Notes under the pieces: generated by a model
Told to the model about the DNA's origin: nothing
Seen by the model: the letters and a program-made list of their open reading frames with translations, nothing else
Databases searched by the model: none
Position numbers and translations under genes: made by a program
Shown: positions 1,122 to 25,178 of the stretch, piece by piece
Position numbering within the stretch: position 1 is the first letter of the stretch
How the letters are laid out: every line of letters starts with the position of its first letter
Assembly: GCA_949751835.1 (NCBI GenBank)
Contig: CATKHK010000179.1
Span: 1-28,403, forward strand
DNA: 28,403 bases
Origin: Blepharisma japonicum
Lineage: Eukaryota > Ciliophora > Heterotrichea > Heterotrichida > Blepharismidae
Direction of reading: 5' to 3'

Positions 1122-2052
1122 ATGTCGCAGGATAATTCTAAGGATATTGTAAAATGTGCAAGTATCATAATAGCAGAGTCTTTATTATATCCTGTGAGCT
1201 CAATATTAACTCGCATTCAATCAAATAACCTCAATATCTTGGCTTTAAAACAGCCTTTATCATCATTTTACGGAGTTGGTAGCGTAGTCACATCGCTTCC
1301 AGCATTTCTATTTAGGCTCAAAGTCTGCGATGTCGCTCATCCTATAGTCCAAAATCGCTGTAATTTCCTATTTAGTCGGCTTATCACAGTTTACTACATT
1401 TTTTTTGGTTTCTGGATTTGCAGATATCGTTTCTTGCATTATTCGCTGCCCAACTGAGCATTGAAGACAGCAATTCCAAACAGGCATGTATTCATCTGTA
1501 AAAGACTTATACAAAGACATATGAGGATATAAAGGATCACTTGGCGTTTGGAGTGGCTTTTCAGTATATTTAGGAAGAGAAGTAGCATTTAACACAATTC
1601 GGTTTGGAATTCTCTCATACCTACAAGAAAGAGAGAAAAGGAAACCAACTTTTACTAAAGAGCAAAAAAGAGCCAATTACCGAGAGTATTTTAATGATTC
1701 TGCCAGTTATGAAAGAAAGCAAAAGGCTCAAGCTTTTGCTCAGTTCAAAGCTTTTCAATGAATGAACACAATAGCGACTATAACAGCAGCTATTTTATCA
1801 ACACCTTTTGATATTCTGAAAACTAGAGTTATGACAGACAATCTTCATGATCATAAACCGCTAAGAGCTCACTTTAATCAGCTTATTAGTGAAGAAGGGG
1901 TTTTCGCTCTATTTAAAGGGGCTGGAATTAGAGCCTTTTATATGTGTGCACTCATATCTTCTTTTCTATCTTTAGATTTCTATTTAACTTCTCCAATCCA
2001 AGAAGCACAAAGAATAACACAAAAAGTAGTTGAAAACCAAAGAGATGATTAG
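1122..2052 (+). CDS. Mitochondrial carrier family (SLC25) protein, one 16-nt intron
   Basis: Exons 1122-1359 and 1376-2052 encode 304 aa, the normal size for this family of inner-membrane transporters with three two-helix repeats. Repeat 3 carries the canonical signature TPFDILKTR followed by LFKGAGIRAFY. Repeat 2 has a divergent form, CPTEHWRQQFQ, and repeat 1 has PVSSILTRIQ without the acidic residue. Without removal of the intron at 1360-1375 the frame is lost after NRC. With it removed, reading continues NRFGLSQFTTFF and stays open to TAG at 2050-2052. Three in-frame TGA codons (1462, 1522, 1759) are read as Trp. The substrate cannot be told from sequence; the degenerate first repeat suggests a divergent member. 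The 3' end is partly duplicated 116 bp downstream. Confidence 0.9.
1360..1375 (+). other. 16-nt spliceosomal intron in the SLC25 gene
   Basis: The sequence is gtaatttcctatttag. It splits codon 80 after its first base. Removing it restores a 304-aa carrier frame that carries the repeat-2 and repeat-3 signatures. It has GT-AG borders and the ATTTAG 3' end shared by most introns here. Confidence 0.88.
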
Positions 2053-2196
2053 AATTCTTAATTAATTTATTCTTTTGAATTGTTTTAATCATACTTAGCT
2101 TTATCTATACCTATTTCTAGATGCTCAAAATAGGACTTAAATATACTGAAAATCAAAGAGATGATTAATAAACCTAATTAATTTATTCTTTTGGAC
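2031..2196. repeat. Tandem duplication (116-bp offset) of a convergent gene junction
   Basis: Copy A at 2031-2080 and copy B at 2147-2196 share tgaaaa-c/t-caaagagatgatt, then, after a short divergent stretch, attaatttattctttt. Copy A contains the real end of the SLC25 gene. Copy B contains the real end of the minus-strand gene that stops at 2183-2185. Each copy also carries a relic of the other gene's end: copy B would read ENQRDD then stop on the plus strand, and copy A would read SKE then stop on the minus strand. Weaker similarity reaches about 35 bases further upstream. A local duplication spanning both 3' ends explains this. Confidence 0.75.
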
Positions 2197-2647
2197 TCTC
2201 TTTACTATCATTTTTCTTTGGAATCAAAATTTTACTAGATGCTTCTGCTATTCCTAAAGCTTTTTCTACTTCAAGCTTTGCTAAAGTTGCTGGAGTTGCC
2301 TCTTCAACATATTGTTTAACTATTGGCTCAACTTGTGAAAAGCTATAATGTCATGCGAATGATTTTGTGAGCATGAAAAAGAAGCCATACATCCCAATCC
2401 CTGCAATATAAATTGCTGCTTTTTTTTCTGGGGTAAATTTTGTTATTTTTTTATCCAAAAACAACATTGCGCCTACAACTATTGGAAATTGGATTAAATT
2501 TCCGAGTCATCAGCCTTGATTGTAAGCTTTTTTTAATTTTTGTTTTTCAATCATACTGAGAGCTGCTGTGTTTGGAAGGTCATACATGGCTGATCGATAC
2601 ATTTCTCCTTCAAATCTGTATTCTTCGAGCCTTTTATAGAGATCCAT
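2183..2647 (-). CDS. Small two-helix membrane protein, unknown function
   Basis: This gene appears only when TGA is read as Trp; the reading frame has three TGA codons, two of them adjacent (AYNQGWWLGN). It encodes 154 aa from ATG at 2645-2647 to TAA at 2183-2185. The N-terminal 45 residues are charged and helical (MDLYKRLEEYRFEGEMYRS). Two likely membrane helices follow: NLIQFPIVVGAMLFL, and after a short basic loop (DKKITKFTPEKK) AAIYIAGIGMYGFFFML. The C-terminal part is soluble, acidic and basic, and ends KKNDSKESPKE. There is no classical signal peptide. Size and layout resemble small mitochondrial inner-membrane or respiratory-complex accessory subunits, but I recognise no family, so this is only a guess. 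It lies convergent to the SLC25 gene; its last codons lie inside the duplicated junction. Confidence 0.75.
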
Positions 2648-2772
2648 AGCTTCTAATTATTCTAATCAATTTTCATTTATTTTTAACTTATTAGACTTTT
2701 GCAGCTGTCAAGGTCCCGGAATGTTAAGCATCTTCTTTAAATTAAGAGAAAATAGAGCTAATATTCTATACA

Positions 2773-3825
2773 TTAAATAAAATAAGTATTTTTTATATGT
2801 CGGAATAATAAAATATCTTCAACAAGACTTGTGTTAGCATTTGATTCTAAACCCAGTGCAATTTCAATAGATGTCAAATTTATTGATTCTTCACATAGAT
2901 GAACATTCAAGGGCTCCCAAAATTTATCAATGAACTGTTTTTCTATATACACGTCTTTTCCAATCAATTGAGCTTTCGATCTCCCAAAAGTTTCAATACA
3001 AAAATCTGTCAATTCTCTTAAGTAAGGCTTGAAGCTCTTTGAGTTTTGTTCTTGACAATATAAAACATCTCTAGCTTGCATTCATTTCTCTCCCAATTCT
3101 TTAAGTAAATATTTAAAATTTATTTTCAAGCTCACCACGCTTCCTAGAACATATCTATTTATCTCCTTGTCTGTCAAAATGCATTCAAATCTGATCATCT
3201 CTTGGTGAGTTGGTATCAATTTTATCCATATAAAAGGGTTCTCTATGAATTCTTCACTTTTCAAGCTTTCTAACCCTTCAATTTGTTTACCAACAGTGCC
3301 ATTTAATATATTTATTGCAATTCCTTCTCCTAAATCAAATCGCATGCTTCCACATTTTTCATAAGTAGCTACCCTAATTGATTTAACAATATTTAAAGTC
3401 TCTGGTTTTGCATATCCACAAATCCTGAGTAAAGCATAAATAAATAATCCTGTCCTATGTATTCCTGCAGCACAATGAATATATAAAAATTCACCTTTTT
3501 CTAGTCTTTTTCTAGCATCAAGTAGCCCAGATCTAATTGCAGTTGACGCTTTATTACCTTCTAATAATTTTTTATTAGCACCTTGCAGGCAAATTCATAC
3601 TCATTTAAGACCATGGTCTAAACAAGCTTTTTCAATTTCATGAGGATATTCTTGCTCAGATTGGAGGGTAAAAACTGTTGTGCATGGAGTTGATTGTGCA
3701 AGGATAGAAATACCTCGAATTGAAGGTCTGTGAAAGGCAGTTATACCACCTGATAAAAGAGGATAGAATGGAAGAGATGTATATTCTACGGATTCTGAGA
3801 CTCCTTTAGGTCGAGACATTTTCAT
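2773..3825 (-). CDS. Dual-specificity-type phosphatase fused to a degenerate oligoribonuclease-like domain
   Basis: A 350-aa protein in a single frame with three TGA codons as Trp (residues 75, 77, 248). Residues 1-175 form a cysteine-phosphatase domain with the intact active-site loop HCAAGIHRTG (Cys118, Arg124), followed by the helix LFIYALLRICGY. From about residue 196 the protein resembles DEDDh oligoribonucleases: FIWIKLIP for the WIDxExTG strand, IRFECILTDKEIN for RIIEIAxIVTDxDLN, QLIGKDVYIEKQFIDK for the GNSxxxDxxF block, and a C-terminal SLVEDILLFRHIKNTYF for ALDDIxESIxELxYYRxxIF. The nuclease catalytic residues appear lost: Asp to Lys202, Glu to Ile204, Asp to Glu295, His to Thr; only the last Asp seems kept. 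The phosphatase is predicted active and the nuclease domain inactive, perhaps still binding nucleotides or RNA. The phosphatase call is firm; the oligoribonuclease assignment is from remembered family patterns. Confidence 0.88.
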
Positions 3826-3938: not shown

Positions 3939-6900
3939 TTAATTTGGTTTGTTTTTCTTCTTTGCCTTGACTACTCTTCTCACATCAGTTGTGGCCGCAG
4001 AGAACCCTGTTATTTTCACTCTCTTAAACTGTAAAATGTTTGACAGCTGAGCGACCTTTTCTTTTTCCAGCTTTGACGTCAAAAAGCTTAAAGCATTAGG
4101 ATTTGCAGTGCTTAATCTTTTAATGAAATTCCTAAATTGCTCATATTCATCAAGATCTTGTAACGGATCTATAAATGATGCTATAGCAAGAGTAGCTTCC
4201 ATTTCTTCAGTATCCGCGTTTTTCAGCATCTTTTTATATTCATCTGATTCTTCATTCTCTTCCTGCTGTGCGTTCATTGACCTAAGCATTTCATAGATCA
4301 TCATATCTTGCTTTTTAAGGATTATTGCATTTTTGGTAGTCGCAGGAATCAGAATTTCTATTAGCGCCTGAAATATTTCAGAAATTTTGTTTGATACAGT
4401 TTCAGGCATTACTTCTTGTGAAAGAATTGTTGCCAATGCTAAAGTGGTGACTTTTTTATCATGCTGGTGGGTGAATTGTTTTGCTTGAAGCACTGTTAAA
4501 TCGAGAACTAAGTCTAAATTGGTCCTTTCTTCTATTAATGGCATAGAGTTTAAGATTTGAAAAGTCAACTGGCAGTTATAAGCAAATGCTGCAAGAGCAA
4601 CACCTAGCAGCCTAATCCTAAAAAAGTCATGGTTTATTTGATCTGTAAGCCTGTTCATCGTCATTGATATAATTTCTCCTAGAAGAAAATCAATTTGTCC
4701 GACATAGGTATACAAGATTTGCTGAAGTATCAAGGCAGCTTCAGAATTTGTGCCTTCATTAGGTTTTCCTTTATAGTTTGAAAACAAGCACATCCTGCAC
4801 ATAGACACTACAGCTGTCAGCATGCTTGGATTTGCTGCAATTACTTCTCTCCCATAATGTAAATAACAATTCATCAAGGGAAATAGCTGTATAAAAGTAC
4901 CTTCGTATTTCTCTTGAATCAAATTTAAATAAGGAAAAAGTGCCCATCCAATAGTTGTGACCATGTTCAGCTTTTTCATCAATCCAATCTCAAAAATAAC
5001 AATTTCGTCATCAAAATCAATTTCTTTAGGATTTGTCATAAAGTTAAACAGCGGGGTTAATGTTTTTTCCAGGTCCAAAATCTGCTGAGTTTCTAGCTCT
5101 CTTGCTTCTAAAAGCATTCTTATAATATTCCAGCACTTCGATATGACCACACTTGACTTTTCTTTTGTGCCATCAGATTCTTCGTCATTTTCCTGCTTAA
5201 GTCTTATAACTTCGCTTTGGATTTTCTGCACGATAGCGCTTACAAACATTTCCAAATGAGGGTACACTAGATCAGTGTTGCCTGCGACGACTTCTTGGAT
5301 AGCTTCAAAAAACTCTTTATTGTTCTGAATAGGAATTAAATGGATAAAAGTAACAATTATGCTTGAGAGGAGCGAGTCAAGTCTTCTACAAACTGCGTCT
5401 TCTTGAAGCATATAGCCAAGGGTTTCACAAGCTTGAATATTCGTAGCCTTTGGAGTTGTGCTGGGGTTGCAGCAGTTAAGCAATATTTGGACTAAGCTTA
5501 TGAAGCTAGAAATATCATGAGTAAATATAGACACACAGAAATAGTGGACTATTAAACAAAGACGATGCAGAATAAGACCATCTGTGACAGCTGAAAAAGC
5601 TGATAAATGAGTCCCAATTATAGCGTCCAGCAAATTAGAAAGATCTGCACGCTTTTTGATAAAGTGGGAAAGTATGCAGAGAGCAGAAAGAGAAGTATCG
5701 ATTGCTAATGTTTCTGAAACATAAAGAATAGGAGCATTTTTGAACTGAGTTAAAAGACTAAAAGATTCTGGGTTTCCTTTTACAACTGTTTTATCAATAA
5801 GTTCAGATACAAAATTTACTGCAAAACTCAATGAGCCATCAATTTTTTCTGAAATTTTTTTTAATAGTAAAGCACTAGTGATTTTCAATATGTCAGATTG
5901 CTGCTGGTCACACATGTCTTTTGACATTAGTACAAATTCTTCTGGCATTAATTCAAATCTTTCTAAATCATTTTGGGAGGACTTTATTATTGGGAGGATT
6001 ATTTCAACGATAATTTGTTTGTAGCTGTTTAAAAAGAAGCTTAAAAATCTGTTATCGCAGCATGCTTTACATAAAATAAGCAAAATTTCATTCAGATAGT
6101 TTGAAATGTTTTCAGTCTGCAGCAGTTCTTCATAATCAGCTGATGAGATAACAGAATGAGCAGTTTGTGTAAGTGGGCTTATAAGTTCCATTGTTATATT
6201 TATAAATGGAGAATTCTGTATACCATCTGAAATTTCTACGTTTTTTTCATTGGAATTATCCTCTGTCACCTTCATATTTAATTCTGAAAGATATTCCAGA
6301 ATACTCACAATGCAGGTAAGAATTTGGGTTTTGGCTTCGTTTAGTTTAAGATGGTGCATTTTGGTTTCCAGACAAATTAATCCTTGATTGCTAGGTATTG
6401 ATAACTCTATAATTGATTTAAAAGTTTCAGCTAATTTTTGCATTGTGCTTATTTCAGCAAAACTAGGTTTTGAAATAAGCTCAAAATATTCAAAAATTGC
6501 GCCTAATGTAATAGCCCACTCATTAATTATGTCGCATCCGTCTAATAATAAATATTCATTGTTTTCATAAACCCCCTTTTGTATTGTATAAATTTCTTTA
6601 TGAGCCACCACCAGTAAAGAATCTAAAAGATGCTTAAAAACTGGGAATAAATTTTCATTATCAGAAAATACTCCATAAATAGATCTTATAGCTACAAAAG
6701 ATCCTAATATTTGGTGTTTTTCGCCACCAAGGTAATTTGCCACTAATGGTAAAGTCATTTGCATTAATTCTTGCTGGGGGTCTGCCAAGTCAACCATAAA
6801 CAGAGGGACTAGCGCCAATCCTAAAGAGTTTTGCAAAGATATAGTGCTTTCTGGAGCAACTAGTGCATTAAATATTGATTTCGCTATATGATCTTTGGCT

Positions 6901-7148
6901 ACTGAGTTCAAATTTTCTTCATTTAGTACTTTCATAAGGAAATTTTTCAGATTAACGCTTGCTGAGATTTTTATTTTCTCAGATATTGCAGCTTGGCTTG
7001 ATGTCAATATAGAAAGCAATGACTGTAAAAAATTTTCTTTATCTTGGCTCAGAGTTTCTAATTCTGCTTCTGCAGACCTCACTTGGTCAGTAGATGTAGC
7101 TTTAAAAGTGGATTCTAGAAGAGAAGCTATCTTTAAAGCTAGATCCAT
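3939..7148 (-). CDS. Importin-beta superfamily karyopherin (importin-7/8 or exportin-2 like)
   Basis: A 1069-aa alpha-helical, leucine-rich, HEAT-type protein without introns or in-frame TGA. The N-terminus has the arrangement of importin-beta N-terminal domains: MDLALKIASLLESTFKA, then VRSAEAELETLSQ, then the second helix pair ISEKIKISASVNLKNFL, the usual Ran-binding region. The length suits importin 7/8 and CSE1-type karyopherins (about 950-1050 aa). Acidic loops occur near DNSNEKNVE and QENDEESDGTKEK, as in importin 7/8. The C-terminus ends in a basic tail, VRRVVKAKKKNKPN. The role is nucleocytoplasmic transport of unknown cargo. The superfamily is fairly sure; the subfamily is uncertain. 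The start at 7146-7148 leaves 36 bp to the stop of the upstream S11 gene on the same strand. Confidence 0.85.
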   Translation of the reverse strand: MDLALKIASLLESTFKATSTDQVRSAEAELETLSQDKENFLQSLLSILTSSQAAISEKIKISASVNLKNFLMKVLNEENLNSVAKDHIAKSIFNALVAPESTISLQNSLGLALVPLFMVDLADPQQELMQMTLPLVANYLGGEKHQILGSFVAIRSIYGVFSDNENLFPVFKHLLDSLLVVAHKEIYTIQKGVYENNEYLLLDGCDIINEWAITLGAIFEYFELISKPSFAEISTMQKLAETFKSIIELSIPSNQGLICLETKMHHLKLNEAKTQILTCIVSILEYLSELNMKVTEDNSNEKNVEISDGIQNSPFINITMELISPLTQTAHSVISSADYEELLQTENISNYLNEILLILCKACCDNRFLSFFLNSYKQIIVEIILPIIKSSQNDLERFELMPEEFVLMSKDMCDQQQSDILKITSALLLKKISEKIDGSLSFAVNFVSELIDKTVVKGNPESFSLLTQFKNAPILYVSETLAIDTSLSALCILSHFIKKRADLSNLLDAIIGTHLSAFSAVTDGLILHRLCLIVHYFCVSIFTHDISSFISLVQILLNCCNPSTTPKATNIQACETLGYMLQEDAVCRRLDSLLSSIIVTFIHLIPIQNNKEFFEAIQEVVAGNTDLVYPHLEMFVSAIVQKIQSEVIRLKQENDEESDGTKEKSSVVISKCWNIIRMLLEARELETQQILDLEKTLTPLFNFMTNPKEIDFDDEIVIFEIGLMKKLNMVTTIGWALFPYLNLIQEKYEGTFIQLFPLMNCYLHYGREVIAANPSMLTAVVSMCRMCLFSNYKGKPNEGTNSEAALILQQILYTYVGQIDFLLGEIISMTMNRLTDQINHDFFRIRLLGVALAAFAYNCQLTFQILNSMPLIEERTNLDLVLDLTVLQAKQFTHQHDKKVTTLALATILSQEVMPETVSNKISEIFQALIEILIPATTKNAIILKKQDMMIYEMLRSMNAQQEENEESDEYKKMLKNADTEEMEATLAIASFIDPLQDLDEYEQFRNFIKRLSTANPNALSFLTSKLEKEKVAQLSNILQFKRVKITGFSAATTDVRRVVKAKKKNKPN

Positions 7149-7184
7149 ATTTCTTATTATTATCCAATTTTACTAAAATTTACT

Positions 7185-8207
7185 TTAAAAATATTTACTA
7201 GCCCATTTGAGCAGATTTGTGCTTTCACTCCATCTACTCCCGGGTGTTGCTGAATTAAGAAGCACAATGATTATTTTTCTTTTCCTTTTTTCAGCAATGC
7301 TACACAAGCAGGGTCCCGCATTCGGGGTGAATCCTGTTTTTACTCCTGAAAATCCTAGTTTCAACAGTTTGTTTGTGTTGTTCCATTCTATTTCCCTATT
7401 TCCTTTTGTGTTTCTCAATACACATCTGTAACTTTGTGTGTTCACAATACGCATGAATTGCTCGTTCATGCATACAATTGAGGCAAGTGTCGAAATATTT
7501 TTTGCTGTAGAAAGATTTATTGTGGTGGACATACCGTGAGGGTTCGTGAAGCATGTTGAAGTTAACTTATAGAGCTTACAAGTCTCGTTCATTTTGGTCA
7601 CAAATGCTCCGACTGGGTCTAAAGAGCTTGGGCTTAGAAGATTTCCAATGAATTCTGCAAGCGCAACAGCAGCATCGTTTCCAGAAGGAAGCATTAGTCC
7701 GTGAAGAAGATCGCGAATAGTTCCTTCGTCTCCAGCTTCAAGTAAAGCTGAGGTTCCTTGCATACTGGCAGCACTTTTCGACACTGTAATTTTTTCTTCT
7801 AAGTCTTTTTTATGGTTATTTAGTTCATTTAATACTACAAAGCAAGTCATGATTTTCGTGAGACTTGCAATTTCTCTAGGGTTATCTATATCCTTGCCGT
7901 CTAAGATTTTGCCCTTTTTTCCGCCCATTACTACCCATGACTGAGCAGTTATGCGGGGTCGATGCTGTATGCGTTCAGTGCGTAAATCATCCTGAGTTTG
8001 ATGGCTCTCTGCGATCATTGATAAGTTTTTAGATGGTCTGGGCTGCTTGGTTTTGTTTCTCCGGACTTTAATTGAGAATCTGGTTGAAAATGTTTTTCGC
8101 ATAGGCTGCTGCAAATTTAAGTCAGGAAGAATTGAAGACCTTTGCCTCGAATTTGGAGGAGAAGGTGAAATACTTCGAGGCAGAAGCCCAGAATCCTGTT
8201 CGTCCAT
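7185..8207 (-). CDS. Peptidase S11, D-alanyl-D-alanine carboxypeptidase-like (penicillin-binding-protein fold)
   Basis: A 340-aa intron-free protein. Residues about 85-340 are a complete serine transpeptidase/carboxypeptidase domain with all three active-site motifs in correct order: SLTK (Ser115, Lys118), SGN (Ser175-Asn177) and KTG (290-292). Typical S11 context surrounds them: ASLTKIMT, GLMLPSGNDAAVALAE, TNPHGM and GFSGVKTGFTPNAG. Bacterial enzymes trim the terminal D-Ala from peptidoglycan stem peptides. The membrane-anchoring C-terminal domain of DacA/PBP5 is absent. Residues 1-84 are a disordered, Ser/Pro/Arg-rich extension with no signal peptide, unlike bacterial members. Base composition and Trp codons do not stand out from the neighbours. 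Ancient acquisition from bacteria, with a role in digesting or sensing food-bacterium cell wall, is inference. Confidence 0.93.
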   Translation of the reverse strand: MDEQDSGLLPRSISPSPPNSRQRSSILPDLNLQQPMRKTFSTRFSIKVRRNKTKQPRPSKNLSMIAESHQTQDDLRTERIQHRPRITAQSWVVMGGKKGKILDGKDIDNPREIASLTKIMTCFVVLNELNNHKKDLEEKITVSKSAASMQGTSALLEAGDEGTIRDLLHGLMLPSGNDAAVALAEFIGNLLSPSSLDPVGAFVTKMNETCKLYKLTSTCFTNPHGMSTTINLSTAKNISTLASIVCMNEQFMRIVNTQSYRCVLRNTKGNREIEWNNTNKLLKLGFSGVKTGFTPNAGPCLCSIAEKRKRKIIIVLLNSATPGSRWSESTNLLKWASKYF

Positions 8208-9452: not shown

Positions 9453-9953
9453 ATGCAGTGGGACAAAGAGATTTATAACAATTTGATTATATGCTATACA
9501 CCAGCTAGAGGTTTAATTACCAATTGTGTTGAGCAAGCTGCAGCTATTATGTGCCAAAATTACAGAATTTTGGAAAGCACTCCAAATTTTCACTTAGAAA
9601 ATTATCAAGTTGATGTGCCAAAAGAAGACGGAGAATCAAAAGAAAGAGTAGCTGTAAATGAAACTCAAATTTTAGATGAGATTTTAAGTACTGGAAAAAC
9701 TGATTGCAAAGCTGGAATTATGATAAATAGAGAAAAATATAAAATAATCAGCTATGATGCCTATTTTAAAACCGCTTATTTATCGAAGCCAAATGGAGGA
9801 GCATGCGCTATTAAGACGAACCAAACTATAGTTTTTGCGAGCTGGAACAAAGATCTTGTTACAGGAGGGGTTCGATCTTTTCATCAAAATGCAAGTTTCT
9901 GCAATGAAAGATGTCGAAAATTTGCCCAGAGCTTGATAGCAGTTGGATTATAA
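9453..9953 (+). CDS. Profilin-like protein (probable)
   Basis: A 166-aa intron-free protein ending in TAA. The C-terminal half fits the profilin pattern: a strand with INREKYKIISYD for the GxKYMxIxxD strand, then SKPNGGACAIKTNQTIVFASW for the GKKGxGGxxIKKTxQALIxGxY block, then a long final helix (NERCRKFAQSLIAVGL) like the terminal helix of profilins. The N-terminus (MQWDKEIYNNLI then ITNCVEQAAAIM) matches the first helix and strand with their Trp. Profilins bind G-actin, poly-proline and phosphoinositides and control actin assembly in the cytoplasm. It is longer than typical profilins (about 125-150 aa), with an insert in the middle (about residues 50-75). The match is by remembered pattern and divergent, so a structural search should decide. 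Confidence 0.65.
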   Translation: MQWDKEIYNNLIICYTPARGLITNCVEQAAAIMCQNYRILESTPNFHLENYQVDVPKEDGESKERVAVNETQILDEILSTGKTDCKAGIMINREKYKIISYDAYFKTAYLSKPNGGACAIKTNQTIVFASWNKDLVTGGVRSFHQNASFCNERCRKFAQSLIAVGL

Positions 9954-9971: not shown

Positions 9972-11357
9972 TTAGACTATAATACACATTTCACAAGATG
10001 CATTTTTCGAGGTATTTTCAATAACAATTCCTTCTCTTTTTTCGATTATTTTTACTTCTTCTTGAAGCTTTGCCAAAATTCTATTCCTGTAGCCAGGTTT
10101 TGAAATTCCCACTTCTGTTTTTAGCATTTCATCATTTATTGGGTACCTTGAAAACATTTGTTTAATTAGCATTTCATAATCGTCAAATCCAGACTCAATA
10201 AAGTGATTATAAAGCTCTTCTAGCTTTAAATTCTTAAGCCAGTCTTTGAGATTTATATTTAGAGGAGGTCCCAGTGTAGCATTATTTGGAGTATTGCAGC
10301 ACCTCCAAAAACTTTCTGTGCCTATACTTCTGGATTTAAGAGAAAGTACTTTTGGACAAATACAAGCATCTTCTTCTAATTTCATAATAATCCTATACTG
10401 ATGCCCAGCGGCTAAAATCCCAATCCTTTCTAGCTCATCCCTTGTAATTGGGTATGCACTATTCATCTGAACTATCAAGCTTTCAATATCATCATACCCT
10501 GCATCACACAATATATCACACAATTCTTGCAATCCTATACTTTCCAATCAGCTATAAATTGGCTTTAATTTATTTGAATTTTGTTTTGGCATCACACTTA
10601 GCTCCGAATCAGGCTCAAAATTAAAATTTTGAGGAATTGGTGGTGTTGGCGCTTCGTAATTTTCAATTTCATGAGAATCATTCAGGCTTTTCCCTTTTCC
10701 AAATGTGTCTCCTAACTCTAACTTGTCCTCGTCGAAAAATATGATTTCACTTTCACTTTCTTTTTCCCCATTGTTAAGTGTATTCTGTAGCTCTTTTATT
10801 TGCGCTAAATCAATTGGTCGCTTTTCTTGCCGATCTGGGAGAAAAGGATTCCCACCATATTTCATTAGCAGTTTAACAGAGCTTATGTGCCCACAATCAA
10901 CTGCATAGTGCAAAGGGGATCTTCCAAACATAAAATTCTGAATGTTTGGGTCTCCTCGATATCGTAATAAAAGCTCGACCATTTTTTCGTCACCTCTAAA
11001 GGCTGCATGGTGAAGAGGGGTATCTCCGTCGTTTTGCTGTAAATTAGGATCTGCATGATATGTTAACAAAAGTTCAGCGATTTCATATTGAGAGTTGTCT
11101 GCAGTTTGATGCAAAGGAGTTTCGCCTAGGTTGTTAGGGAGATTGGGATCTGCTCCGTGTTTAAGAAGAAATTGAGTTGCTTTGATATGGTTACAAATGA
11201 CTGTGCGATATAGGGGAGTTCATCCAAGACTTTCGTCTTTTTTGTTTAGTTTTTCTGGATCTGCGCTATAAGCTTTTTTGATTTCTAAGAGAGAGCCTAA
11301 CCTGCAAGCTTTTTGAAGATCCATAACATCAACTTGATTATTGTACTGCAGTGTCAT
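9972..11357 (-). CDS. Ankyrin-repeat / double SAM-domain protein with C-terminal CaaX-like tail
   Basis: A 461-aa protein from ATG at 11355-11357 to TAA at 9972-9974, with at least two TGA codons as Trp (including residue 270). Residues about 10-185 hold four to five ankyrin repeats: GWTPLYRTVICNHIKAT, GETPLHQTADNSQ, GDTPLHHAAFRGDEKMVELLL and RSPLHYAVDCGHISSVKLLM. A disordered acidic linker follows (about 190-265). Two sterile-alpha-motif domains then occur at about 270-330 (WLESIGLQELCDIL, ending HQYRIIMKLEE) and 373-435 (WLKNLKLEELYNHF, ending GYRNRILAKLQEE). The last four residues, CIIV, have the form of a prenylation CaaX box, with a further Cys just upstream, suggesting membrane anchoring. 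This is a scaffold architecture; partners are unknown. It is convergent to the profilin-like gene with 18 bp between stops. Confidence 0.92.
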
Positions 11358-11394
11358 TTCTGAATATTTAAATAAGTATAATTTCAATATTGAT

Positions 11395-11432
11395 CTATAA
11401 GAAAATATTCCACTTTGTGTAATATTTTATAG
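11395..11432 (-). repeat. Inverted repeat upstream of the ankyrin/SAM gene
   Basis: CTATAA-gaa-AATATT at 11395-11409 pairs with AATATTTTATAG at 11421-11432 (12 bp with a 3-base bulge, 11-base loop). It lies 38 bp upstream of the ATG in the 293-bp divergent spacer shared with the LITAF-like gene. It could be a cruciform or regulatory palindrome, or chance in AT-rich DNA. Confidence 0.3.
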
Positions 11433-21041: not shown

Positions 21042-21857
21042 CAATTTAAAAGCAGATCAATAATAAAATATTTAACAAAATTATTATAGCTAATAAAATT
21101 AAACAATAAATTTTGATTAAGTAAGAATTTTAAATATGCATAAAATTAGATCTATTATTTTTAAGATTTTATTGCTATATCCAATCAATTGAAATCTTAA
21201 TAAGGATTCATTTAAGATATTTCGGTTTTATCAATTTTATCGTTGATTAGTTTCAAGCCAAATTGCTTGCATACAATAAATTTTTATATTTTTAGAGTGG
21301 ATCAACACTAATATCTCGCTATTATCTGGTGTCTATCCCGATGATTGGAGGGTTAGTTTGAGCAGCATTTAGATTGATAATCTTTAATAATGGGCGGATT
21401 TACCAATTTAATGGTTGCTTCATAAACCACCCCAATCCTCTCGAGTGATATTGGAATGATAGTGATCCATTAGAATGGATAGTCTATACAAGTTTATGAA
21501 AATCTTGATTGCATGCCATTATTTCATTAATATTATTTCATAAAATTTATTTAGATTGATTTCGCAATTTTTCACGTTTCCCTATCTTTTATTAAACTAA
21601 TACTAAATATTTTCTTCTAAAAGCTTATAAAATTTATTTGCTTGCTTAAACTTCGGCTTAATCTAAAGGCTAGGCTATTAAATTTTTAATGCGCCAAAAT
21701 TTATAAGGTAGCAATAAAAATTATTATAATAGACTTACATAAAGAATTATAAGTTCTCAGTAAATTTTATAAGAAATTGTTTACTCAGAGCAAATCATAA
21801 CTGCTGTCTCGGCCCGGTTGAGATATTAAAAATTTCTATTAAATGCAATAAATTAAA
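21042..21857. other. 816-bp gene-free gap with a candidate RNA and one GC-rich spot
   Basis: The gap lies between the stop of the HAD-like gene and the start of the P5B ATPase, both on the plus strand. It contains the structured segment described separately (about 21296-21471). The rest is AT-rich with no coding frame. The frame of the ATPase has TAA at 21849-21851, so the protein does not extend upstream without a further intron. A GC-rich spot at about 21802-21823 (tctcggcccggttgaga) can form a weak hairpin and lies some 35 bp before the ATPase start. Confidence 0.6.
21296..21471 (+). ncRNA. Candidate structured non-coding RNA (rod-like, about 176 nt), unassigned
   Basis: Seven helices nest in order, as in one folded RNA. 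AGTGGATC 21296-21303 pairs with GATCCATT 21464-21471. ACT 21307-21309 pairs with AGT 21461-21463. AATATC 21310-21315 plus TCG 21316-21318 pair with CGA 21442-21444 plus GATATT 21447-21452. GATTGG 21343-21348 pairs with CCAATC 21432-21437. GGTT 21351-21354 pairs with AACC 21425-21428. GAGCAGCATT 21360-21369 pairs with AATGGTTGCTT 21410-21420 (one bulge). AGATT 21371-21375 pairs with AATCT 21379-21383. Three G-U pairs on this strand would be A-C mismatches on the other, favouring plus. It lacks the diagnostic sequences I know for U1, U2, U4, U5, U6, SRP or RNase P RNA. No transcription evidence is available. Confidence 0.42.
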
Positions 21858-24800
21858 ATGGAAATAAGCGATGGAAAGGAGTTTACTGTGAAATCGCCTC
21901 TTATTCCCTACTCAGATTCAACTTTCCCATGCATAATGCATATCTACGCCAATGAGGAATCTTTTATCCAAAAAATTGAATCTTTTAAACTTACTTTTAT
22001 AGGGACTTTATTCCATTGATTTTTAGTGATAGTCACCCTTGGTATTTATTTTTTATTCGACAAATGATTTATTACACTTCATCTTAGAGTTCGTTACAAG
22101 CGTTCCCCACCTAATTTATCCACTCATTTTTTAATAACAACCAAAGATTTCACCGATTTGGTTGAAGTGACTTTAAAGCATTCTAAAATATTAGGCGATA
22201 TAATTACATTTACCCACCATGATTTATCTTATTATTTTGATGGGAAATGTTTTCAACCTCTTTATTTTAATGCAGCTATATCATACTCTTCAATTATTGA
22301 CAGATATAGTAAAGGTTATAACGATAGCGAATCAATTCAAGAAATGCGGTCTCTTTTTGGTTTATGCCAAATCGAAATACCAGTGAAGTCATTTTTACGG
22401 TTGGTTTATGAAGAAGGGATGAGTCCATTTTATATTTTCCAGATATTCAGTATAACCATATGAATGGCTGATGAATATGTCTTATATTCCTGCTGTATAA
22501 TACTATTAGCTTGCATTTCATTATTTTCTTCAGCAGCTCAAACTAGAAAAAGCATGCTTGAGCTCCATGAAATTGCGTTAAAAATCATAAAAGTTAAGGT
22601 ACTTCGGAAAGGAACTTGGACAGTTTTGGATAGTGCTAACTTAGTTCCTGGGGATGTAATTGAGATTCCTCAACAGCAAGAAATGCCATGTGACTCTGTT
22701 TTAATATCAGGAAGTTGCATAATAGATGAAGCCTCTTTAACAGGTGAGTCCATTCCAGTTATAAAAGATAATCTTCCCTATTTATCTGAGCATATTTATA
22801 GTATTGAAGGCGATAGACATTACTCCTTGTATGAAGGAACTAAAATAATCCAAACAAGAAATTATGGCCAAGGAGAAGTTGTAGGAATAGTTACTAGAAT
22901 TGGCTTTGCAACAATGAAAGGAAAAATGATCCGCTCAATTTTATACCCAAAGCCAAGTAAATTTAAATTCTATGAAGATGCAATAAAATTCATAGGCGTT
23001 CTTGCAATAATTTCTTTTCTTGGATTCATCATATGCATGCCTATCATGATTTATCGAGGAGTCCCTATCGCTCAGCTGCTTCTTCATTGCTTAGATTTAT
23101 TCACTGAAGCAATTCCTCCAGCATTACCTGCATGTTTGACTATTTCTACAGCAATTTCTATATCAAGATTAAGGAAACAAGGAATTTTTTGCACTGCTCC
23201 TCAGCGTGTCAACGTTGCGGGGAAAATTGATACTTTTTGTTTTGACAAAACAGGAACATTGACAGAAGATGGAATGGATTTGTTAGGGGTTCATCCTAAT
23301 ATAGATCGATTGATTAATTTAATATATAATGACCCATCTAATATACCAAGTAGCTCAAAACACTTGATTCAGTGTATGGCTGCTTGTCATTCTTTGATTA
23401 TTGTAGATGGAAAATTGCTTGGAGATTCTCAGGATGTGCAAATTTTTAATTTTACTAGATGAAGCATTGATCTTCCTTTAGCAGAAAATCAAAATTCTGA
23501 TATGAAATTTATTGTAAAACCAGAGAGATCTGAGGATGGGCTTGGAATATTAAGAACTTTTCATTTTACCTCAAAACTCAAAAGGATGGGAGCTATTGCA
23601 AAAAGTTTGGCTGATGAGCAGTTCATTTTTTATATGAAAGGAGCACCTGAGGTATTGCTAGAAAAATGTAAACCTGAGAGTATTCCTACAAATTTAGCAA
23701 AAATTTTATCAGGCTATACGTGTTCGGGATATAGAGTATTAGCTTGTGCTTATAAGTGTATTGAGCCTATTGATAACTCTGATTTAAATTCAAGGCATAT
23801 TACAGACTTTGAATCAGATTTAGAGTTTCTAGGGTTGATAATTCTTCAAAACAAGCTAAAATCTCAGACAATCCCTACAATCCAGGTGCTGCATGAGGCT
23901 GGAATCAGAACAATAATGGCTACTGGTGATGCTATATTAACAGGAATTTCTGTTGCAAGAGAGTGCTCACTGATAGACTCTAGTATCTCAGTATATCTTG
24001 GCGAGCTTAGAGATGGAAAAATCCTATGAGAGCTGTTTGGAGCTGAAAAACCATTAGAATCCCATAGTATTATAGAGCAACCTTGAAAATCTCAAAATGA
24101 TTCTTATAATTTAGCTATGACAGGTGCAGCATTAGCTCATCTTATTCATCTTTCAGAATCTGGAGAACAAGACTCATCTTTTAGCATCAAAAATATCATA
24201 GAAAAATGTAAAGTTTTTGCAAGAATGTCGCCAGACCATAAAAGCTTGCTGATAGAAAAATATCAGCAATTTGGAAAAACCATCGGAATGTGTGGGGATG
24301 GGGCGAATGATTGTGGAGCTTTAAAAACTGCTGATATAGGAATATCGCTAAGTGAAGCTGAGAGTTCTATTGCAGCACCTTTTACGAGTAAAATTCCTGA
24401 TATTTCTTGTGTAATTAATGTATTAAGAGAAGGAAGATGCGCATTAGTATCATCTGTACAGTGTTTTAAATATATGACTTTATATGCTATGATTACATTT
24501 ATTTCTCTTTGCATAATGTATTGCGTAGGAACTGGAACTCATAATAATCAGTTCCTAGTATATGATTTGATTACTGTAATGCCACTAGCGGTTGCTATGA
24601 CTTATACAAAGGCTTGCAATAGATTAAGCAAAAAACAGCCTATAAGTGCTTTAATTTCAGTTTCTGTATTAAGTTCAGTAATAGGTCAAATTTTGCTTGA
24701 AGCTGCGACTCAAGCAGCAGTCTATTTAATCGCAAGCGCAATGCCATTTTTTGAGCAATCTGATTATGAGAGCGGGAAAGATTTGAACGAATTTTATTAC

Positions 24801-25178
24801 AGTTACCCCAATACTGTAATATTTTTGACATGTTGGATGCAAATGGAAATGATCGCTTTAGTGTTTAATGTTGGAGGTCTTTGAAAGAAGCCATTTTACA
24901 CGAATTTTTTGTTTACAGGAATTTTTATTGCTCTTGTCGCTGCAACGATTTATTCTGTTGTTTATCCAGCAGATTGGGTTAGAGATGTGCTTAGCGTAAG
25001 ATTTATTTAGCTGAAAGATATTCCTGAATATTTCAGATTAGTTCTTTTAGGGATTTGTGCAATATATGCAATTTTGGCATATATTTTAGAGCTAGTTCTG
25101 GTTCCTTGGATAGAAATAATGTGGTTTAGCTATCAATTGAATCGGAAAAAAATATCAAGCTCTAATAATATTAATTAA
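21858..25178 (+). CDS. P5B-type P-ATPase (ATP13A2-like), one 15-nt intron
   Basis: Exons 21858-24995 and 25011-25178 encode 1101 aa; seven in-frame TGA codons are read as Trp. All P-type motifs are present: TGES (295-298), PPALP in M4 (420-424, the P5B form), the phosphorylated DKTGTLT (Asp463), KGAPE, MATGD and CGDGAND (813-818). N-terminal helices FKLTFIGTLFHWFLVIVTLGIYFLF match the Ma-Mb entry segment of P5B pumps, and six hydrophobic helices lie near the C-terminus. P5B pumps such as ATP13A2 export polyamines from late endosomes and lysosomes into the cytosol; the same role here is inferred. Without splicing, the frame would stop at TAG in the intron, just before the last 55 residues, which include a final membrane helix. 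ATG 21858 is the first Met after an in-frame TAA. Confidence 0.95.
24996..25010 (+). other. 15-nt spliceosomal intron in the P5B ATPase gene
   Basis: The sequence is gtaagatttatttag, lying between codons 1046 and 1047 (phase 0). It ends in an in-frame TAG, so retention would truncate the pump before its last membrane helix. After removal, reading continues LKDIPEYFRLVLLGICAIYAIL, a clear membrane helix. Confidence 0.92.

Follow-up and report, generated by a model that had tools for sequence, protein, structure and literature searches.

A nine-gene family of S11 DD-peptidase-like proteins in Blepharisma japonicum, probably derived from bacteria

The S11 gene and the closest described systems

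D-Ala-D-Ala chemistry is considered a bacterial trait, and hence penicillins spare eukaryotes. In S11 enzymes the serine of the SxxK motif is the nucleophile and the lysine the general base, with the SxN and KTG motifs in their usual roles. The DD-transpeptidase of Streptomyces K15 is an exported bacterial enzyme of this family. As a single-domain penicillin-binding protein (PBP) of low molecular mass (PDB 1skf, 1es2-1es5 and 1esi), it is among the closest known systems to the gene described here, which lies at 7185..8207 on the minus strand of contig CATKHK010000179.1 of the ciliate Blepharisma japonicum. The window, the whole stretch of 28,403 nucleotides that was analysed, is this complete contig (C179), one of the 224 contigs of a 45.2-Mb genome. 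The gene is predicted to encode a PBP-like serine DD-peptidase of 340 amino acids and belongs to a family of nine; it was probably taken from bacteria long ago and is now probably used inside the ciliate's own cell.

E. coli PBP5 has a signal peptide and a membrane anchor. PBP5 (dacA) and class C PBPs carry a PBP5_C domain, while none of the nine ciliate proteins has this domain or a signal peptide. K15 is without a comparable N-terminal tail, and has Cys98 (as numbered in the titles of mutants) where the ciliate protein has the Asn of SxN. The eukaryotic LACTB-type serine beta-lactamase-like proteins share the penicillin-recognising serine fold. They belong to family S12, whereas the ciliate protein belongs to S11, and a six-frame search of the genome for S12 (PF00144) gave no match at E 0.001.

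A further related group is the S11 subfamily found in Planctomycetota and Prosthecobacter (loci L025-L037, L042, L046, L070 and L120-L125). These proteins start much as the ciliate ones do, mostly with P-x-V/I-S/T-A/C-x-x-W, and end shortly after an R-W/Y...L..W helix, with PBP5_C absent in the scanned members. They differ in their hydrophobic, signal-like N-termini (12 of 15). All nine scanned long planctomycete members contain, in order, a class A beta-lactamase-like domain, PG_binding_1 and S11, and the ciliate proteins are without the first two: neither PG_binding_1 nor a separate beta-lactamase domain was detected in any of the nine, in which weak PF13354 matches fall on the S11 domain itself. 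The fused proteins include L025 at 1292-3289, L027-L033 and L035.

Automatic S11 annotations for ciliates occur in public databases. Among the matches listed for ciliate, protist or eukaryote S11 and for Blepharisma genomes in open-licence PMC, no study of S11 in ciliates was found by title or abstract. The word "carboxypeptidase" is absent from the main text of PMC9942806, and none of six related words is present in a gene-transfer paper on Euplotes (PMC13071891). Bacterial peptidoglycan enzymes are likewise retained in insects, namely aphid amiD and ldcA and the wall-synthesis genes of mealybugs (in passages of PMC9116674, whose main text does not contain "DD-carboxypeptidase"). However, those enzymes belong to other families (amidase, LD-carboxypeptidase) and occur in hosts with an obligate bacterial symbiont.

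A first-pass annotation made from sequence alone had called a complete S11 enzyme with intact motifs and a disordered N-terminal extension of 84 residues. Its coordinates were exact, from ATG at 8207 to the stop TAA at 7185. Pfam Peptidase_S11 (PF00768) matched residues 80-320 at 1.4e-50, covering profile positions 4-238 of 239 and scoring 172 bits (cut-off 27.6). The SLTK, SGN and KTG motifs were all confirmed, as S115-L-T-K118 (SxxK, 7854..7865, computed from the ATG at 8207) and, in the translation, S175-G-N177 (SxN, 7677..7685) and K290-T-G292 (KTG, 7332..7340). The extension (residues 1-84, the coding part 7956..8207) precedes RITAQSW, consists to 50% of S/P/R/K/T and has a net charge of +8. 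In the predicted model its residues 1 to about 60 had low confidence scores (predicted local distance difference test, pLDDT), which agrees with the disorder that had been claimed, although a helix was modelled at residues 62-81 and was confident from about residue 71. The catalytic domain (residues 85-340, 7188..7955), by contrast, had ten-residue pLDDT means of 91-99 and the penicillin-recognising serine enzyme fold, and the protein ends directly after it.

R325 (7233..7235) aligned with Arg248 of both Streptomyces K15 and E. coli PBP5, with residue numbers counted by hand. PBP5 Arg248 makes a bidentate contact to a cyclic boronate through its carboxylate, and likewise to the C-3 carboxylates of penicillins (PMC4979060). 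Because R325 matches this carboxylate-contacting residue, the site appears suited to ligands with a free carboxylate, such as a D-Ala-D-Ala end. PBP5 Arg198 may correspond to R271, an uncertain match read from the alignment. With SxxK, SxN, KTG and a carboxylate-holding Arg, the active site is complete, and a putative acyl-serine enzyme is catalytically plausible. By sequence, motifs and predicted fold we class the protein as S11; lacking both signal peptide and PBP5_C, it would not be an exported PBP of the PBP5 type.

The nine-gene family and its bacterial relatives

A Pfam search of the same genome found nine S11 loci on nine contigs of 28 to 975 kb, and with the window protein as query the same nine were recovered, followed by noise (tenth match E 1.42). 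All nine genes were open from ATG to TAA or TAG with TGA read as Trp, encoded 310-351 amino acids and matched PF00768. As eight more intact paralogs exist elsewhere in the genome, chance can be excluded. Ten motif and carboxylate-site residues were invariant in all nine, while domain identity to the window protein was 43-62% and identity between subgroups 41-50%. Three cysteines, C122, C300 and C302, were also invariant; C122 and C302 are absent from the aligned planctomycete rows.

For the three closest pairs, the ratio of nonsynonymous to synonymous substitution rates (dN/dS, Nei-Gojobori) in the domain was 0.053, 0.058 and 0.194, rough values given a dS of 1.5-2.4. The N-terminal extensions evolve faster, with a dN of 0.32-0.50 compared to 0.11-0.29 for the domain in the same pairs. 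Tails of 56-91 residues were present in all paralogs, with 38-62% S/P/R/K/T and a net charge of 0 to +12, and were variable between them. Clear common flanks were limited to two pairs of segmental duplicates: L010/L015 (contigs C152 and C43), with an ankyrin-kinase gene nearby that is 94% identical, and L012/L014 (C23 and C92), with a kinase/EF-hand gene that is 69% identical. A conserved gene neighbourhood was considered and rejected. The seemingly common neighbours were protein kinases and ankyrin proteins, which are large families and provide no functional context.

A scan of prokaryote genomes gave at least 591 stretches with at least 556 relatives, from which the best 80 loci were kept; closer bacterial relatives may therefore exist. 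These 80 comprised 16 from Planctomycetota or Prosthecobacter (L026, whose genome drew the same phylum sample as a Pirellula genome, being placed in Planctomycetota) and 64 from Bacillota. The top 13 by E-value were all of the Planctomycetota/Prosthecobacter kind with 32-41% identity, and no sequence above 41% was present among the best 80 of 556. Matches were found in 271 plasmid records, all below 60% identity, with none above 40% among the 40 rows listed. Few genomes carry the subfamily: a match at 1e-40 or better was present in 6 of 199 from Planctomycetota (centre genome counted). Of the Verrucomicrobiota genomes, 15 of 145 reached the same threshold, but the Verrucomicrobiota rows in the tree other than the two Prosthecobacter loci fell elsewhere. 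A viral origin was rejected, as IMG/VR gave three distant relatives at 27-43% identity and none with the paralog on C152, and the 71 phage records with a match were all below 60% identity.

Two trees were constructed. The 64-row tree was drawn from 126 profile hits after removal of duplicates (L108-L115, L107), near-copies (L138, L139) and L106, with Bacillota cut to 16 chosen rows; for the 70-row tree the long branches L105, L128 and L141 were removed and nine rows added. With 70 rows, the ciliate proteins, all nine, grouped as a single clade (100/98) whose sister comprised 22 Planctomycetota/Prosthecobacter rows (98/90 for the union). The 64-row tree gave a ciliate clade at 99/97 and a union at 100/94, the sister clade having 23 rows including the long-branched IMG/VR contig L105. 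A tree constrained to join ciliates with Bacillota was rejected (approximately unbiased (AU) test, p 0.004). On these sequences, a single gain followed by duplication would be the simplest account. This evolutionary part of our explanation and its anatomical part are very probable; the identity of the donor group is less so.

Export signals and possible roles

None of the nine proteins showed a signal peptide in a hydropathy test, the best 11-residue value in the first 40 residues ranging from 0.07 to 1.33. The window protein was the lowest at 0.07, and the absence of a signal peptide noted in the first-pass annotation was thus borne out. Among 15 planctomycete-type S11 loci, 12 reached at least 1.7 at the N-terminus; two of the others (L036 and L037) are cut off by the start of the contig, and in L027 the assumed start lies upstream of a hydrophobic stretch. 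The genome has eight matches to GH25 lysozymes (PF01183), and all five N-termini examined were strongly signal-like, with 2.56-3.55 in the first 45 residues. At least five of the eight matches form a tandem cluster (G000:C99:87873-94067).

The suggestion that an upstream exon with a signal peptide had been missed found no support in any gene, within the limits of the intron scans. Neither in the 250 nt preceding the coding sequence nor in its opening 60 nt did any of the nine have a GT..AG intron of 15-18 nt that gives an in-frame upstream start. None had a GTA-N9-TAG intron in the 400 nt upstream or in the coding sequence, a scan that sees the 15-nt class; introns of 16 nt or more with another consensus are not well excluded. 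The examined GH25 lysozymes have signal peptides (5 of 5) and the S11 proteins have none (0 of 9), which argues against a secreted or phagosomal role reached by the usual route.

In the explanation we favour, one bacterial gene gave rise to nine nuclear genes, and it most likely came from the S11 subfamily that some Planctomycetota and Prosthecobacter carry today. In the course of this the signal peptide would have been lost and a variable, disordered N-terminal tail gained; the PBP5-type C-terminal domain is absent, as in the bacterial kin. The absent signal peptide suggests the cytosol as the site of action, and the substrate may be stem pentapeptides reaching it from digested or cytosolic bacteria. 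Ser115, with Lys118 as base, would attack the D-Ala-D-Ala bond to form an acyl-enzyme, release D-Ala and be freed by hydrolysis, with Ser175/Asn177 and Lys290-Thr-Gly in their usual S11 roles and Arg325 on the carboxylate. These residue roles are proposed because S11 enzymology is established and the residues are invariant. The benefit, the weakest step, might be D-Ala salvage, detoxification or a blunting of muropeptide signals. Because no D-Ala-D-Ala ligase was found, D-Ala-D-Ala peptides would come from food or resident bacteria. A bacterial-derived nine-gene family acting as cytosolic DD-carboxypeptidases is, taken as a whole, a little short of an even prospect, and the muropeptide-trimming role is slightly more tentative.

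Several results weigh against this explanation. A tree constrained to join the ciliates with the three actinobacterial rows was 9.1 log units worse and was not rejected (p-AU 0.156), and a Nonomuraea (actinobacterial) match has 40% identity over 88% of the domain, as similar as the best planctomycetes (38-41%). The donor group is uncertain for these two reasons. The phylogeny called for in the first-pass annotation placed the ciliate clade as sister to Planctomycetota/Prosthecobacter in both trees and did not reject an actinobacterial sister. The two pairs that include the window gene were saturated, with no usable dS and a dN of 0.31-0.32, and purifying selection was measured on other paralogs only. 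No D-Ala-D-Ala ligase was detected, the three PF07478 matches including two scanned ones that are biotin carboxylases, and neither Amidase_2 (PF01510) nor the S12 family was matched at E 0.001; other muropeptide enzymes were not searched. Thus no wider muropeptide pathway is seen among the families searched. Nine copies seem many for simple salvage, and delivery to vacuoles or extrusomes by a non-classical route could still occur.

That last route forms the strongest alternative: the N-terminal tail would be the address that takes the enzymes out of the cytosol to act on bacteria in a food vacuole, symbiont vacuole or extrusome. Tails are present on all paralogs and vary between them, as is often the case for targeting or docking tails, and peptidoglycan should peak in food vacuoles, the presumed destination of the GH25 lysozymes. 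However, the examined lysozymes of this genome carry ordinary signal peptides, and neither a signal peptide nor a candidate upstream exon was present in any S11 gene; we consider this alternative possible but unlikely.

Alternatively, the substrate may not be peptidoglycan: as eukaryotic serine hydrolases with a borrowed S11 fold, the enzymes could act on a D-peptide, ester or amide that the ciliate makes or encounters. To our knowledge ciliates have no peptidoglycan, which together with the failure to find a ligase, PF01510 or PF00144 in the searches would suit such a role, and the divergence between subgroups fits substrate diversification. The invariance of all ten motif and carboxylate-site residues, including the putative carboxylate reader R325, argues against it, and we regard it as a slightly weaker candidate than non-classical delivery.

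Cytosolic defence or symbiont control, by trimming or sensing the walls of bacteria that invade the cytosol or reside in the cell, is quite improbable. Cytosolic placement and growth in copy number would fit it, and a precedent exists in the horizontally acquired aphid genes amiD and ldcA, which are tied to symbiont wall metabolism (PMC9116674), but the catalytic domain is under purifying selection in the measured pairs, which gives no hint of an arms race. Contamination by bacteria was rejected, as was a chimeric contig, the latter named in the first-pass annotation as a possible refutation: the sequence is of bacterial type, its closest relatives among the best 80 of 556 are bacterial and the G+C content of the contig in 1-kb windows peaks at 0.382 at 7001-8000, over the S11 gene, but nine copies lie on nine contigs, six of the nine have an in-frame TGA, the scanned flanks are of eukaryotic type and bacterial identity does not exceed 41% among the 80 loci kept.

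Returning to a cytosolic family of bacterial descent, a bolder form of it is doubtful: the paralogs might be a diversified set of penicillin-binding DD-peptidases that process or sense peptidoglycan fragments, with the disordered tail docking each paralog to a different site in the cell. If that were true, Blepharisma would be a eukaryote with true cytosolic beta-lactam targets. With nine members, intact active sites and no export signal, this S11 family of a wall-less, bacterivorous eukaryote allows a direct test of whether stem peptides are processed in the cell's own cytosol and whether beta-lactams have a target there. It would also be a well-supported protist example of a peptidoglycan enzyme family that came from bacteria and expanded.

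Host genome and neighbouring genes

A run of three CCCTAACA telomeric repeats gave 168 matches in the genome, the reversed control 0. TGA encodes Trp, as indicated by in-frame TGA within six of the nine S11 genes and by a P-type ATPase gene (21852-25010, plus strand) that forms one open frame of 1052 amino acids only with this code and breaks into several pieces under table 11. Over 93 kb, GTA..TAG introns were in excess at a length of 15 (10, compared to 1, 0, 3 and 1 at 14, 16, 17 and 18). Plain GT..AG introns showed no excess over the same 93 kb, nor did GT-AG in the window alone over decoys (3 vs 4, 4 and 7). Blepharisma stoltei has CCCTAACA telomeres, UGA as Trp, 15/16-bp introns and a 41-Mb genome (part of PMC9942806). 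The genome was taken as Blepharisma because telomeres, code and 15-base introns agree.

As the first-pass annotation had it, the S11 gene sits among eukaryotic-type genes: profilin (9453-9953), ankyrin+SAM (9975-11426), BTB, CHORD, LRR and the P-type ATPase. Such genes were found beside the S11 copies on all scanned flanks (C179, C20, C152, C8, C23 and C92). The S11 stop is separated by 36 bases (7149-7184) from the ATG of the next minus-strand open reading frame (ORF; 3939-7148, 1069 amino acids), which had no Pfam match at 1e-3. The ORF on the plus strand at 8-901 is NAD-dependent epimerase/SDR-like. Bacterial and cyanobacterial models are among its NCBIfam matches, none of which comes near its cut-off; the ORF is possibly another bacterial-type gene.
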